Shown here one piece after another: positions 1 to 49,023 of a DNA stretch of 49,102 nucleotides; position 1 is the stretch's first letter; every line of letters begins with the position of its first letter. The position numbers and the translations under genes were made by a program. The stretch lies in NCBI GenBank assembly GCA_016235875.1, contig JACRII010000139.1, positions 1 through 49,102 of the forward strand, in the 5' to 3' direction. Under the pieces are notes generated by a model that ran no database searches, was not told the DNA's origin, and worked only from the letters and a program-made list of their open reading frames with translations. The stretch is from Planctomycetota bacterium (lineage in GTDB: Bacteria > Planctomycetota > Brocadiia > Brocadiales > Brocadiaceae).

Positions 1-214
1 CTAAATCAGACTGCCATCAGCGACTTCTTAGCCACAGAGGTCGCAGAGATTACAGAAAAAAGGGGAATATTCCTAGGCGTATAGGAATTTCAACGTTGTA
101 GGGGCAATTCATGAATTGCCCCTACCTGTAAACAAAAAAATCACCGAAGGCCTAACTTAAGCATCCTCTGTGAATCATTTTCATTCGTGCTTATTTGTGC
201 AAATTCGTGGCTTA
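1..214. other. Intergenic stretch with repeat remnants at the window edge
   Basis: I see no convincing gene here. GCCACAGAGG at 31-40 and CCTCTGTG near 165-172 are the arms of a dispersed repeat whose relatives recur at 11718-11765 and 48891-48980. A perfect palindrome lies at 98-125. A plus-strand frame is open from base 1 to a stop at 79-81, but it runs through the repeat, so I do not call it. Confidence 0.5.
98..125. repeat. Perfect 28-bp palindrome, GTAGGGGC...GCCCCTAC family
   Basis: The 28 bases equal their own reverse complement. The outer 8 bases, GTAGGGGC and GCCCCTAC, recur at 19312-19339 and 46827-46854, and a close variant is at 6886-6911. The inner bases differ between copies but stay self-complementary, which points to a maintained structure or a mobile palindrome. 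Confidence 0.9.
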
Positions 215-18540: not shown

Positions 18541-20397
18541 GTGCCGAATAACTCACATCTTTTAATTAAAACACCCCGTATTTTCCTGCCTGTTCTGGTA
18601 TCCCTGATTTCATTTCTTGCGTACCTGAACACCCTTCACCATCAATTTGTGTTCGACGATTTCAGGGTCATTACAAACAACCCATACATAAAGGATTGGA
18701 AGCATTTTCCGGCACTTTTTAACTGCGATTATTTTGAAATTTCTGGGGAACTCAGTTACCGTCCGCTTGTCACTGCGTCATATTTCACGGATTACGCTCT
18801 ATGGGGTCTCAACTCATTTGGATTTCACCTGACTAATCTGATACTTCACACGCTCAATACCTTTATCGTGTACCTTTTACTATTTAAAATAACCAGGAGG
18901 TTTAATCTTACCGTAATATCATGTTTATTTTTCAGCACACATCCCATACTTACAGAGACCGTGAATTCCGTGGGTTTTCGGGAAGACCTGCTGTGCGCTA
19001 CTTTTTTTCTGCTCGCCTTATTCTTTTATGTAAAACTCTACACTTCAAAATATAAAAAAATCTGCTATATCATTTCGCTCCTTACCTATTTCCTGTCTCT
19101 GTTTTCAAAAGAAATGGCCATTTCACTGCCACTCATTATTTTTGTTTTAGACTGGTTTTTTCTGCAATCAAGGGTCAGAATATCTCACCCCCACCCTAAC
19201 CCTCCCCCATCAAGGGGGAGGAGGGAGCCAGGCAACTTGCCAATTCATGTTCATCAAGATGATGTGAAACATTTTTGGGGCGGTCAAAAAAGTCTTAAGA
19301 ACGTACCCTATGTAGGGGCTGAAAATCTTCAGCCCCTACCTGTGAAAACAAGAATTTTAAGGTATTATCCGGGGTTCATATTGATGAGTATCGGTTATAT
19401 GCTCCTCAGACTGGTATTCTTTAAGAGTACCATCGAACACGTTGCTTATCCGGGGAACAGTCTGGTAACTAATTTCCTTACCATGACAAAAGTCATTGCC
19501 TCGTATATAAAGCTCTGGTTCTTCCCGACCGTTCTCAATCCGGATTATCACGTTACTTTTGAAACCACACCCATCAACTCCCCTTTTCTCATATCCCTCG
19601 CACTGCTGGTATGTATCGCATTTCTTGTGGTAAGGCTTTATCGCAGGCAAAAGGAAATAACCTTTTCGATTCTCTGGATATTTATCACATTGATACCGGT
19701 TATGAATATTATCCCGATCGGCAATATCATGGCAGAAAGGTATCTGTATCTCCCTTCGTTCGGTTTTTGCCTGTTTGCGGGGATACTGATGCTTAAAATT
19801 CATGCACGTGTTCCAAAGGCATATCACCCTTTTGTGAATGGTTGTTTTGCCGCCATATTCATCCTCTCCCTTGCTCATACCATAAGGCACAACAGGATTT
19901 GGTTTGACCGAACAACCTTATGGTCTTATGCAGTGGGTAACACGTCATGCAGTTTTAATGCTCATAATAATCTGGGAAAGCAATATTTTCTGAATGGAAA
20001 GATTGATGAAGCAATGAGAGAGTACAATATTGCTCTATTAAAGGCATCCGAAATTCAGTATAAATATCCAATAACACATCACAATCTTGGTCTTGTTTAT
20101 GATACCAAAGGGATGTATGATGATGCAATGCGAGAATACCAGAATGCCTTACGTATTGATCCTAAATACAGTGAAAGTCATAATAATTTGGGAATTATAT
20201 TGTTTAAAAATAAGCAGGTTGACCTGGCCATTGAAGAATTTAACAAGGCAATTTCATTTGACCCAAATAACCCAATATATCACCAAAATCTGGCGAAGTT
20301 ATATTACGAAATCAATATGCCTGGCGAGGCAAAGATAGAACAAGAACTGGCAAATCGGTTAAGAGATAGTAGTTCAGCCACGAATTTAAACCAATAA
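18541..20397 (+). CDS. Polytopic membrane protein with C-terminal TPR repeats (TMTC/DUF1736-like)
   Basis: This 618-residue protein has about ten hydrophobic segments in residues 10-455 and three or more tetratricopeptide repeats at about 465-605 (AHNNLGKQYFLNGKIDEAM, HNLGLVYDTKGMYDDAM, SHNNLGIILFKNKQVDLAI). The DDFRVITNNPYI and AMAE/RYLYLPSFGF motifs recall TMTC-type O-mannosyltransferases and the ArnT/PMT GT-C fold, so glycosyl transfer to proteins or polysaccharide is plausible but unproven. Residues about 215-268 are foreign: they are encoded by a REP-like palindrome and a GTAGGGGC palindrome read in frame. The start is the GTG at 18541, with no clear ribosome site. Confidence 0.75.
   Translation: MPNNSHLLIKTPRIFLPVLVSLISFLAYLNTLHHQFVFDDFRVITNNPYIKDWKHFPALFNCDYFEISGELSYRPLVTASYFTDYALWGLNSFGFHLTNLILHTLNTFIVYLLLFKITRRFNLTVISCLFFSTHPILTETVNSVGFREDLLCATFFLLALFFYVKLYTSKYKKICYIISLLTYFLSLFSKEMAISLPLIIFVLDWFFLQSRVRISHPHPNPPPSRGRREPGNLPIHVHQDDVKHFWGGQKSLKNVPYVGAENLQPLPVKTRILRYYPGFILMSIGYMLLRLVFFKSTIEHVAYPGNSLVTNFLTMTKVIASYIKLWFFPTVLNPDYHVTFETTPINSPFLISLALLVCIAFLVVRLYRRQKEITFSILWIFITLIPVMNIIPIGNIMAERYLYLPSFGFCLFAGILMLKIHARVPKAYHPFVNGCFAAIFILSLAHTIRHNRIWFDRTTLWSYAVGNTSCSFNAHNNLGKQYFLNGKIDEAMREYNIALLKASEIQYKYPITHHNLGLVYDTKGMYDDAMREYQNALRIDPKYSESHNNLGIILFKNKQVDLAIEEFNKAISFDPNNPIYHQNLAKLYYEINMPGEAKIEQELANRLRDSSSATNLNQ
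19186..19230. repeat. REP-like palindrome inside a coding gene
   Basis: CCTCCCCC at 19201-19208 and GGGGGAGG at 19214-19221 form an 8-bp stem with loop ATCAA, preceded by CACCCCCACCCTAAC. In frame it encodes HPHPNPPPSRG, a peptide typical of such repeats when translated. The gene stays open through it. Confidence 0.85.
19312..19339. repeat. GTAGGGGC palindrome inside a coding gene
   Basis: GTAGGGGCTGAA, four central bases, then TTCAGCCCCTAC. It is the same family as 98-125 and 46827-46854, but here it is read as part of the TPR membrane protein. Confidence 0.88.
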
Positions 20398-38666: not shown

Positions 38667-38915
38667 CGTTGCAAAGACGCAAAGAACGCAAAGTTTTTAA
38701 AAATCAAAGCCTGTTATTAAATTAATCCCCCTTAGAAAAGGGGGTGTTGAGGGGGTTGTCTGCATTACCCTTCATTTTAAAGTCCTTGAGTTGTTAGGAA
38801 AGGATAAGAAATACTGGCTATCAATCCTCGTCCCCTTGTCTTTGTTTTTTTTCATTCCATGTTTTATTGCTTTAGGTCTTTCTCCGCGCCCTTTGCGTCT
38901 TTGCGGTGAACTATT
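38667..38915. repeat. MITE-like element, copy A (about 250 bp)
   Basis: The ends are GCAAAGACGCAAAG and CTTTGCGTCTTTGC, which are inverted. Inside, AGGATAAGAAATACTGG, CCTTGTCTTTGTTTTTTT and TTTTATTGCTTTAGGTCTTT match copy B at 39230-39436. Copy A also holds an extra block of about 65 bases with a CCCCCTTAG/AAGGGGG palindrome, as though a second repeat had inserted in it. It follows the broken toxin. Confidence 0.8.
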
Positions 38916-39229: not shown

Positions 39230-39436
39230 AACTCACCGCAAAGACGCAAAGAACGCAGAGTTTTAAAAACCAATGCCTGTTATCAAGATAATTAGGCAAG
39301 GATGAGAAATACTGGTTATCGATCCTTGTCTCCTTGTCTTTGTTTTTTTCCATTCCATCTTTTATTGCTTTAAGTCTTTGTCTACGCCCTCTGCGTCCCC
39401 CATTTCCATGAGGGCAGGCATTTGCGGTGAACTATT
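39230..39436. repeat. MITE-like element, copy B (about 205 bp)
   Basis: It begins ACTCACCGCAAAGACGCAAAG and ends TTTGCGGTGAACTATT. It matches copy A internally. Its right arm is split by about 23 bases (the CCATTTCCATGAGGGCAGG block). The same block splits the left arm at 37817, which makes the exact 38-bp inverted pair. Confidence 0.82.
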
Positions 39437-44007: not shown

Positions 44008-45798
44008 TTAAAAATGCATTTCTCTGACGAAAATATTCTCAAAAGCTGGGAACTGAGAAAGTTCCGTGACCTGAACAGTGCGGGCAATCCGAGAAGCATC
44101 ATGTAGCAATTTCTTGTTTAACAACGCTTGCACGGCGCCATCCAAACTTGAATTGCCGACAAAAGAAAACTTTACTTGTGTCAAAGCGGGGAGAATGCCA
44201 ATACCAAAGAGGCTTTCCTTGCTCAGATGGTATCCAAATGCACCTGCGATAATGACGGTTTTAAGATCATCTGGTTTAAGATTATGTGATGTAAGTAAGA
44301 TTTCAATGCCTGCCCTGATGGCTGCCTTTGCCAGTTGCACCTGTCTGATATCTTCCTGTGAAATCGAGACGTTTTCGGCTAAGCGAAAGTAACGTCTCCC
44401 ATCTTTCTCGAAGAGGTATGTCCCGTATTTTCCAGCAATATCACTCCCGATACTCTGTAAACGTCCCCTGGAATTGACAAGCCCAACCCGCACAAGTTCT
44501 GAAACAGCCTCCACAAGCCCGCTTCCACAGATACCGCGCGGTTTACCACCGCCGATAACATCAATGAATAATGGTAACCGTTCACCCCCACCCCTAACCC
44601 CTCCCACCAGGGGCGGGGAAGATTCATTGTTCCCTTGTATTCCTTCCCATGTCCCCCTCAGTGAGGGGGAGAAAGGGGGAGTGGTGAGGTTTAAGTGGGG
44701 GTGAACTGTTGCGAATAATTCTTCTTCAAGCCTTACGTGTTCAATCGCCCCCACACTTGCCCTCATGCCTGAACTTATCGTTACTCCCTCGAAACACGGG
44801 CCTGCTGCGGTAGAGGTTGCCACTATCTGATTGTCAAGAAAAAGAACCATTTCACCATTCGTGCCAATATCCAAAAAAAGGGCTGGCAATTCCAACGTCT
44901 CATAATGGATGGCAAGAAGCCCGGAAACGATATCTCCGCCCACATACGCAGAAAAACAGGGGAATGTTGTTACTGGCGCATATTCAGCAATTGCAATAGC
45001 AAGTTCCTTCGCTGTTGTCGTGAAGGTATCAAGGATTTCGGCTGTATAGGGATACTCGCCTATCCCCCTGATTTCCTTGTTTAAAAATATATGCTGCATG
45101 GTGGTATTACCAGCGGCCATAACCTGGTAAATATTTTCAGGTTTTATACCTCTCTCAGACGATAAAAAAGTAATTAAAAAATTAATGGCAGATATAAGCT
45201 CCCGGTGCATTCTGAAGAGACCGTCCTTATGGGAAATGGAGTACTTTATCCGCGACATAACATCATGACCATAATACACGAGCGGATTCAGCACGGAAGA
45301 ATTTTCGAGTATATTGCCATGTTGAAGATCAACCAGTGATGCTACCAGCGTTGTAGTCCCAATATCCAGGGCAATTCCGTACATGCAAGATTGTGTATCA
45401 CCCTCTTCAGTTGCAATGAGTTTATCATTTGCATATACCCGCGTGGAATAAAGGTCGTTGCCATAATGCACCAGCTCCTTTTTTACCGATGGATTCATGT
45501 TGTATTGTTGACTATCTTTTGTGAAGAAGCCGTCGATAATCTTCATGTCATCCTTCCTTTCCTGGGAAGGAAGGGTAACCTCCATATCATTTTCAACAAC
45601 AGTTTTACAGGCAAGTACCGTATCGAGGGTTTTATTGATCCGTACCTGCACGATATCCTTTCCGCATTTACCCGTACCACCGCATGGACTTTCCACAGAA
45701 ACACCAAGCTTCCTTGCCGCTTCAAGGATGGTAATCCCTTTTGGCACCTCACCTTCAATTCTTAATGGATAAAAAGTTATCTTTGCGCTCTCTGTCAT
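44008..45798 (-). CDS. RACo-like corrinoid protein activator (2Fe-2S plus ASKHA/DUF4445)
   Basis: This 596-residue protein has an N-terminal ferredoxin-like domain with C39, C45 and C64 and an ASKHA ATPase domain (ALDIGTTTLVASLVDL, AAGNTTMQHIF, FLDIGTNGEMVLF, GAFGYHLS). Such proteins reductively reactivate the Co(II) form of corrinoid proteins with ATP. At the usual fourth-ligand position the sequence is CGKD rather than CGKC, so D48 replaces a cysteine. About 45 residues around HPHLNLTTPPFSPSLRG are encoded by a palindromic repeat (44576-44710). I start at ATG 45798, where AAGGGA precedes and ATGA overlaps the upstream methyltransferase. Confidence 0.88.
   Translation of the reverse strand: MTESAKITFYPLRIEGEVPKGITILEAARKLGVSVESPCGGTGKCGKDIVQVRINKTLDTVLACKTVVENDMEVTLPSQERKDDMKIIDGFFTKDSQQYNMNPSVKKELVHYGNDLYSTRVYANDKLIATEEGDTQSCMYGIALDIGTTTLVASLVDLQHGNILENSSVLNPLVYYGHDVMSRIKYSISHKDGLFRMHRELISAINFLITFLSSERGIKPENIYQVMAAGNTTMQHIFLNKEIRGIGEYPYTAEILDTFTTTAKELAIAIAEYAPVTTFPCFSAYVGGDIVSGLLAIHYETLELPALFLDIGTNGEMVLFLDNQIVATSTAAGPCFEGVTISSGMRASVGAIEHVRLEEELFATVHPHLNLTTPPFSPSLRGTWEGIQGNNESSPPLVGGVRGGGERLPLFIDVIGGGKPRGICGSGLVEAVSELVRVGLVNSRGRLQSIGSDIAGKYGTYLFEKDGRRYFRLAENVSISQEDIRQVQLAKAAIRAGIEILLTSHNLKPDDLKTVIIAGAFGYHLSKESLFGIGILPALTQVKFSFVGNSSLDGAVQALLNKKLLHDASRIARTVQVTELSQFPAFENIFVREMHF
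44576..44710. repeat. 135-bp in-frame palindromic insertion in the RACo-like gene
   Basis: The ends form an inverted repeat of 16 bases with one mismatch: AACNGTTCACCCCCAC at 44576-44591 and the complement at 44695-44710. Inside are CCCTCCCACCAGGGGCGGGG and CCCCCTCAGTGAGGGGG palindromes. The length is exactly 45 codons and the frame stays open, so the gene gains about 45 residues. Confidence 0.85.
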
Positions 45799-46811
45799 GT
45801 ATTTCCCTTCACGACTGCTGTCATGGCCTTTATATGCCCGACGGGTGTTTTTGCGCTCAGGCCGCATGCAGGGGCAAGGATGTCTATACCGCAATTCAAC
45901 AGGTTTCTTGAGGCATTTTGTATCCTGTCAATTGGACCGTTTTGTAAAAGAATCGTACTTACGTTGCCCATGAGCTTTTTCCCAGAAATGACATTTTTTG
46001 CTTCTCGTATATTTACCATAGAATCCACACTTACACATTCAGACACGAGTTCCTTAAGTAGTTCATAGACAGGGCTCACACTGCCGCAGATATGGACTAT
46101 GACCGGTTTTCCAAGTTCATGCATCCTATTTGCAATCCTGTTCAAATAGGGAAGTACGAATTCTTTGAACAGGCCGGGTCCAAGAATCTCCCCGGTTGCG
46201 GAAGGGTCGGATATTACCATAACATCCACGCCATGCCCAATAAGTGCCTCACCGTACCTGATACTATTGTCAGTTAAAAATCTGAGCAAACCATGGACAT
46301 CTTCAGGCTCTTGTTTGAGCGCTTTAAAAAGCACCGTTGCTTCTACCAGTGAGGTAGCAAGGCTCAACGGACCGACCAGATTCCCTATTATAGGTGTATC
46401 GGAGAAGAGACGGCTTAATATCGCAGTACATTCAAGGATTGTGGGAAGACGGCCGTCTTTATGAGGGTTGAGTTCTTTTAAATCCTTCCACTGTTTCACG
46501 GATTTTAGCGGATACTGTACCATGTGAGGGCTCGTAATCTCATCACCATCTTCTACTTCCCCTCCAAAAGCCTCAGCTTCTGCCGTCATGCAGAAAGGGA
46601 TACCGAGATTTTCAAGTCCTGTTTCTATTCGCATAGCAATTGAAAGCTCTGCCATTTTTTGCGCATCACGGTGCACTGCCGGCCATCGGCATCCTGTTTG
46701 TATCATGACCTCTCTGCAAGCCATAGTCATCATGCCGCCCGGACAGATAACAGGAGCCCTGTCTACACTTTCACCACGAAGTACTTTAAGGAGTCGCTCT
46801 TTTTCTGTCAT
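45795..46811 (-). CDS. UroD-family (MtaA/CmuA-type) corrinoid methyltransferase, second copy
   Basis: This 338-residue protein reads TEKERLLKVLRGESVDRAPVI, GGMMTMACREVM, IIGNLVGPLSLAT and VIVHICGSVSPVYELL. These match methylcobamide:CoM-type methyltransferases of the uroporphyrinogen decarboxylase fold. The HICGS stretch and a later C residue supply the zinc-binding His-x-Cys. It lies between a similar gene upstream and the activator gene downstream (ATGA overlap), so it is part of one operon. The substrate cannot be read from sequence. No ribosome site precedes the ATG, and the upstream gap holds repeats. Confidence 0.85.
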   Translation of the reverse strand: MTEKERLLKVLRGESVDRAPVICPGGMMTMACREVMIQTGCRWPAVHRDAQKMAELSIAMRIETGLENLGIPFCMTAEAEAFGGEVEDGDEITSPHMVQYPLKSVKQWKDLKELNPHKDGRLPTILECTAILSRLFSDTPIIGNLVGPLSLATSLVEATVLFKALKQEPEDVHGLLRFLTDNSIRYGEALIGHGVDVMVISDPSATGEILGPGLFKEFVLPYLNRIANRMHELGKPVIVHICGSVSPVYELLKELVSECVSVDSMVNIREAKNVISGKKLMGNVSTILLQNGPIDRIQNASRNLLNCGIDILAPACGLSAKTPVGHIKAMTAVVKGNT

Positions 46812-46826
46812 AATAATTAGAATGAA

Positions 46827-46854
46827 GTAGGGGCACGGTGCACCGTGCCCCTAC
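46827..46854. repeat. Perfect 28-bp GTAGGGGC palindrome
   Basis: GTAGGGGCACGGTG is followed by its mirror complement CACCGTGCCCCTAC. It lies 15 bases before the start of the methyltransferase gene on the minus strand. It is of the same family as 98-125 and 19312-19339. Confidence 0.92.
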
Positions 46855-48835: not shown

Positions 48836-48890
48836 GTAAAAGACACCTCCTGACCATTGTTGCATTGAGAAATAGTAACAGTTCAGCTCG

Positions 48891-48980
48891 CCGCAAAGTT
48901 CGCATAACAACCCCTTTTGGTCACCCTTAACAAAGGGGAATTTAGGGGGTTGTCGCTCCGTGTTCTCTGTGGTGAACTAT
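48891..48980. repeat. Dispersed repeat with nested palindrome before the corrinoid operon
   Basis: GCTCGCCGCAAAG at the left and CTCTGTGGTGAACTATT at the right are arms of the GCAAAGACGCAAAG/GGTGAACTATT family. The interior holds an AACAACCCC...GGGGGTTGT palindrome. It lies between the divergent operons. Confidence 0.7.
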
Positions 48981-49023
48981 TACGAGAAATAAAATTATCC
49001 AATAAACTATTGGAGGGATGACG

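Follow-up and report, generated by a model that had tools for sequence, protein, structure and literature searches.

A translated stretch of a membrane protein gene in the window, which is the whole 49,102-nt piece of DNA analysed here, is most probably, judging from comparison with its relatives, a non-autonomous mobile element in a decayed and composite form, translated along with its host protein. Two repeat families contribute to it, here called element 1, a miniature element with two hairpins, and element 2, a shorter unit containing a palindrome tagged with GTAG. Genomes are designated G000 (that of the window), G001 and so on.

Host Gene and Inserted Stretch

18541..20397, + strand: host gene, encoding a 618-aa polytopic membrane protein with C-terminal TPRs (ORF, Pfam TPR, orthologues in relatives)
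19177..19338, + strand: inserted stretch, net 162 nt or 54 codons compared with empty orthologues, its right edge located to within about 6 nt and its left edge falling at loop offset 72 of four of four filled genes (nine-orthologue DNA alignment)
19185..19222, + strand: palindrome 1, left hairpin of the putative IS66-type miniature element, translated SHPHPNPPPSRGR (local alignment with the consensus)
19223..19274, + strand: spacer, non-repeated in the genome, with homologues only in G002 and G004
19275..19341, + strand: element 2, about 66 nt, replacing the right half of element 1 (BLAST, alignment, comparison with G004)
19312..19339, + strand: palindrome 2, GTAGGGGC...GCCCCTAC, part of element 2, translated VGAENLQPLP

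Both palindromes are in frame within the ORF 18541-20397, as the preliminary description had stated for this TPR membrane protein gene, and both belong to dispersed repeat families. Palindrome 1 is a hairpin-forming repeat (19185-19222, translation SHPHPNPPPSRG) with a folding z-score of -2.5 against shuffles, and palindrome 2 is a perfect 12-bp stem with a z-score of -7.4. The copy counts for the window's genome, which come from searches and sampled loci, are more than 20 BLAST copies for the family of palindrome 1 and 21 copies for the GTAGGGGC...GCCCCTAC palindromes, with 0 for the reversed pattern. The same description had given a stretch of about 53 residues between membrane segments at 19186-19339; the insert and the palindromes are found there, but the size is 54 residues (162 nt) when measured against empty orthologues, the inserted DNA begins at about 19177 and element 2 is longer (about 19275-19341). 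The AlphaFold model of the membrane protein, made with four sequences, has a mean pLDDT of 52 with the minimum, 28-36, in the insert, and is too weak to say more than that the insert is predicted as a coil between two helices. A scan of the genome contigs for this membrane protein gave three loci.

Empty and Filled Orthologous Sites

The nine-orthologue DNA alignment showed that the insertion is clean and falls at a single codon boundary, with five empty and four filled genes. In each of the empty orthologues (G003, G013, G023, G027 and G028), the conserved flanks are separated by exactly 111 nt, which is an unbroken loop of 37 residues, while the filled loops have 273 nt in the window, 270 in G002, 267 in G004 and 237 in G017. 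The net gains are thus +162, +159, +156 and +126 nt, respectively, each divisible by three. In all four filled genes the insert starts at the identical codon boundary. This comparison had been proposed in the preliminary description, which named orthologues with the same loop made of unrelated DNA as the refuting result; none of that kind was found, the orthologues having either no such loop or one with related repeat DNA.

These data also bear on the notion of an old and variable native linker, GC-rich and palindromic by chance. Several paralogues of the membrane protein family do have long variable loops at the same place; nevertheless, the empty orthologues share identical short loops, the stems are far stronger than those of shuffles, and the DNA of the insert matches dispersed repeats at 90% or more, which refutes this notion and leaves it a negligible probability. 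The loop is better regarded as a permissive site or hotspot, since long repeat-derived inserts recur there in several paralogues. Other repeat-like inserts in the same inter-membrane loop were found in the paralogues L090, L096, L086, L011, L012, L014, L084 and L085 of this large TPR family, examples being IPSFARGDTGG, SLIPPLARGETG and PSPLVGEGMGEG. Also, the protein of the G004 orthologue (L005) has, further downstream, a second repeat-derived in-frame insert (TTPLSPPLQGGDEGE), and the orthologue L081 (G025:C4) is split into three overlapping frames and is likely a pseudogene.

In the inserts of G004 and G017, a spacer is enclosed by a repeat and an inverted repeat. The window and G002 have the left repeat and the spacer as in G004, whereas their right half differs. 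The spacer is homologous among the window, G002 and G004 and has no repeats elsewhere in the genomes searched, so these three inserts derive from one event; short shared blocks and the same edge suggest that the G017 insert goes back to that event as well. A single simple clade of the filled genes (G000+G002+G004+G017) was rejected (AU test, p 0.00027), and the clade G000+G002+G004 was not (p 0.079). Between the window (19186-19800) and G002 (L003), about 600 nt have 90-99% identity while the remaining gene has 60-80%, which indicates that exchange between relatives (sister lineages) moved the insert, and recombination of this kind makes a clean date impossible. The expectation that the absence of the stretch would date the insertions was borne out in part: empty orthologues do exist, but the filled genes form no clade. 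The right half of the window type dates back at least to the last exchange with G002.

Structure and Ends of Element 1

The complete unit of element 1 was found by searching with the insert of a gene for diaminopimelate epimerase, DapF (L060). Its consensus, GTAACAGTTCACCCCCACCTAAACCTCCCCCATCAAGGGGGAGGAATACAAGGGGACAATGAGTATTCCCCGCCCCTGGTGGGAGGGGTTAGGGGAGGGGGTGAACTGTTAC, has 112 nt and two hairpins (fold z = -6.9 against shuffles), and complete copies carry at both ends perfect 16-bp inverted repeats, GTAACAGTTCACCCCC, starting with GTAA; the element is GTAACAGTTCACC-ended. Size variants of 136, 139 and 163 nt correspond to additions of 24 nt, 27 nt and both. An 8-bp target duplication matches at 7 or 8 of 8 positions in 19 of the 31 listed copies, one row of the list being a duplicate reading. 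Direct repeats of this kind include CAAAAAAG in the AddB copy and GAAAAGGC in the TPR-protein copy of G006, CTATTAGC in the DapF copies of G013 and G002, AAAAGGGG in the U32 peptidase copy of the window's genome and CAGATAAG in a copy of G028.

The window itself contains a complete copy, in the gene of a RACo-like protein:

44008..45894, - strand: RACo-like corrinoid-activating (ASKHA) protein, carrying the complete element 1 (ORF, Pfam, PDB 3zyy)
44574..44712, - strand: complete element 1, 139 nt (112 + 27, hairpin variant), translated ATVHPHLNLTTPPFSPSLRGTWEGIQGNNESSPPLVGGVRGGGERL
44566..44573, strand not assigned: target duplication, left copy GAATAATG, match at 7 of 8 positions
44713..44720, strand not assigned: target duplication, right copy GAATAATT, match at 7 of 8 positions

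Both terminal repeats are present in this copy with one mismatch each, its fold was computed, and the match of the RACo-like protein to PDB 3zyy is interrupted by the insert (query 391 to 444). The preliminary description had proposed that two repeat families entered coding genes in frame in this region, and both families were indeed found in frame in other genes too; however, palindrome 1 and the element at 44576-44710 are assigned to one family of IS66-type miniature transposons, not two, and the second family is consequently only the GTAG palindrome.

In the membrane protein, the 38 nt of palindrome 1 align with the left hairpin of the consensus, the differences being one substitution and one inserted base. 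The left terminal repeat of this copy (at 19177) is eroded, with mismatches at 5 of 13 positions, and the right one is gone; for this reason it is assigned to the family by its hairpin, by the shared site and by the G017 insert. The latter aligns with the consensus end to end, from AACAGTT to TGAACTGTTAC, over 118 nt, its net gain of 126 nt equals 118 + 8, and both ends were this good in 1 of 20,000 shuffles. No 8-bp duplication is readable at the membrane protein site in any genome.

Other repeats occur in the window. A different miniature element of 109 nt (48875-48983) is bounded by GTAACAGTTCAGC... ends, with the exact 8-bp duplication GAGAAATA, and resembles the IS66 end GTAACTATTCAGC of G014 in its first 13 bases. 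A 106-nt direct repeat (38794-38899 and 39292-39397) has 88% identity.

Element 1 Translated Inside Other Genes

Only one of the six frames of element 1, +0, is stop-free, and it encodes VTVHPHLNLPHQGGGIQGDNEYSPPLVGGVRGGGELL. The element and its duplication together have 112 + 8 = 120 nt, a multiple of three; with this length and one open frame, insertion the right way round at a codon boundary adds exactly 40 residues. The peptide was found in DapF, a tandem ArsA ATPase (in the linker), the RACo-like protein, Mfd, AddB, a U32 peptidase, two GvpL/F proteins, a sigma-54 activator, a TPR protein, AnmK, a calcineurin-like phosphoesterase, a shikimate dehydrogenase (at the start of a contig-edge frame) and an amidohydrolase of G044, which belongs to another family. 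Relatives of element 1 are inserted in at least a dozen unrelated genes of these anammox-group bacteria. The DapF insert lies between the two homologous domains and is present in G000, G001, G002 and G013 and absent from the same place in 14 other genomes. A six-frame search of 98 genomes with the peptide gave matches in 12, all Brocadiales, and the end sequence of element 1 was found in 7 of 392 genomes of the phylum, nearly all in Brocadiaceae. Frames of at least 200 residues hold 38 of the 64 copies listed in the peptide search, by the analyst's count.

The two neighbouring gas-vesicle GvpL/F genes (L113, L119; G000:C52) have one in-frame copy each, and a Y1 transposase gene (IS200-type, 154 aa) is located between the two GvpL/F copies (L070, L119; G000:C52). 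Hosts with functions in DNA repair are Mfd, AddB and a UvrD-type helicase (L114, L116, L170, L173, L185), comparable to REPs (PMC3733652).

Among the bounded copies of the window's genome, six of the seven of the 112-core class were in genes compared with none of the ten of other sizes (Fisher p 0.0006), in a small sample with size classes sorted by the analyst. This distribution, together with hairpin variants that differ by 24 or 27 nt and keep the frame, would suit an adaptive role, in which the peptide is a useful flexible linker kept by selection. The differences among coding copies, on the other hand, are spread over the codon positions (11, 16 and 15), with 15 of 42 synonymous against 27% expected, which gives no clear purifying selection on the peptide, and the size variants are explained by frame-keeping alone; an adaptive role is accordingly improbable. 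No excess at third positions was seen among these differences, so the peptide seems to be tolerated, not selected. It is conceivable, though somewhat doubtful, that this lineage of element 1 became adapted to genes, the 120-nt length, the open frame and the 24/27-nt variants having been selected while sister sizes (102 and others) stayed intergenic.

Candidate Mobilisers

GTAA ends with 8-bp duplications are a hallmark of IS66 elements. The IS66 elements of the relatives carry GTAA termini and are flanked by exact 8-bp duplications; the ends of one in G015, GTAACCGTTCAC, agree with element 1 at 11 of 12 positions and those in G014, GTAACTATTCAGC, at about 10-11 of 13. The 8-bp repeats of IS66 members have been tabulated (PMC3281130). 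The GTAA ends and 8-bp duplications of element 1 fit mobilisation of the IS66 type. A search of the window's own assembly, which is 84% complete, found no IS66 transposase, and for this reason movement in trans, or by an element since lost, is proposed.

Element 2, with a unit of about 66 nt, was also found on the contigs C198, C117, C190 and C44 and where a TPP-enzyme frame ends (L038), and a type IIG restriction enzyme (L065) contains the palindrome 2 type alone, in frame. That restriction-modification protein (G000:C115) has a second repeat-like in-frame stretch, NTPLTPLFRGEKMDSPLARGAGG, besides the GTAG palindrome, and two further GTAGGGGC palindromes with different arms are found in the window (98-125 and 46827-46854). 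As in GTAG-tagged REPs, GTAG is at one palindrome end of element 2, which is dispersed in many copies. The whole stretch could then be an ordinary GTAG-type REP pair, spread by REP-associated tyrosine transposases (RAYT) of the cell: genes for a true RAYT (NF047646; C101) and for other Y1 transposases are present in the genome, and palindrome 2 starts with GTAG, the tag of a REP superfamily (PMC3733652). Yet the RAYT genes have neither repeat family on their flanks and no surrounding hairpins, and the element of palindrome 1 has 16-bp terminal repeats and 8-bp duplications, which are transposon-type and not RAYT features. RAYT was rejected on these grounds as the mobiliser of element 1, and this origin is unlikely for the stretch as a whole. 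For element 2 alone the RAYT/REP reading may hold; no copies of element 2 were found near the Y1-transposase loci scanned.

Proposed History of the Insert

Under the preferred reading, that of a decayed composite mobile element, a two-hairpin miniature element with GTAAC... ends, of the kind moved by IS66 transposases, would first have been inserted between codons in the loop between two membrane segments, with duplication of 8 bp, a step seen in the family and supposed for this copy. Since the element and its duplication are a multiple of three with one stop-free frame, the host protein would have gained only a loop. Later, as comparison of the inserts shows, a GTAG-type palindromic element replaced the right half, again in frame, either in the ancestor of the window's genome and G002 or through exchange between both. 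Finally, selection would remove copies in the wrong frame or orientation from needed genes, so that the remaining copies are open.

Comparison with Known Systems

Rickettsia provides the best-known examples of translated palindromes, and it is unclear how these arose and what mobilises them. The Rickettsia palindromic elements (RPE) were reportedly described by Ogata and colleagues in 2000. In element 1, the boundaries, the target duplication, the empty sites and the likely transposase family are all readable, and this in free-living bacteria, with DapF, Mfd and AddB among the conserved host proteins; how a mobile element turns neutral inside genes is therefore directly testable. The hosts also offer protein engineers natural sites at which loops are tolerated. 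A literature search found no in-frame palindromic element for anammox bacteria and no translated element of the IS66 type, although such a search is weak evidence.

RPE are in-frame palindromic elements of Rickettsia (PMC10969869), and element 1 resembles them in its length of about 100-150 bp, its palindromic structure, its position in frame within many unrelated genes and its stereotyped peptide. It differs in phylum and host genes and, unlike RPE, has readable terminal repeats, an 8-bp duplication, a likely IS66 mobiliser and 120 nt with the duplication; the likeness is one of way of working, and no membership of the RPE family is claimed. With IS66-family insertion sequences and the miniature elements derived from them it shares the GTAA ends, the 8-bp target duplication and, with the short forms, the lack of a transposase gene, but it has only 112-163 bp and two hairpins, is frame-neutral and translated, and the search of the window's assembly did not find the transposase. 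The miniature elements QMITE1 and QMITE2 of Coxiella (PMC5896051) similarly have direct repeats and overlap ORFs, some in frame, although their sequence is unrelated and they are mostly intergenic or at gene ends. GTAG/CGTC-tagged REPs have been found inside genes in several bacteria (PMC3733652), where small palindromes or dimers are translated in proteins, many of them of DNA-repair genes; compared with these, element 1 has no tag and has transposon-type ends, whereas element 2 carries the GTAG tag.
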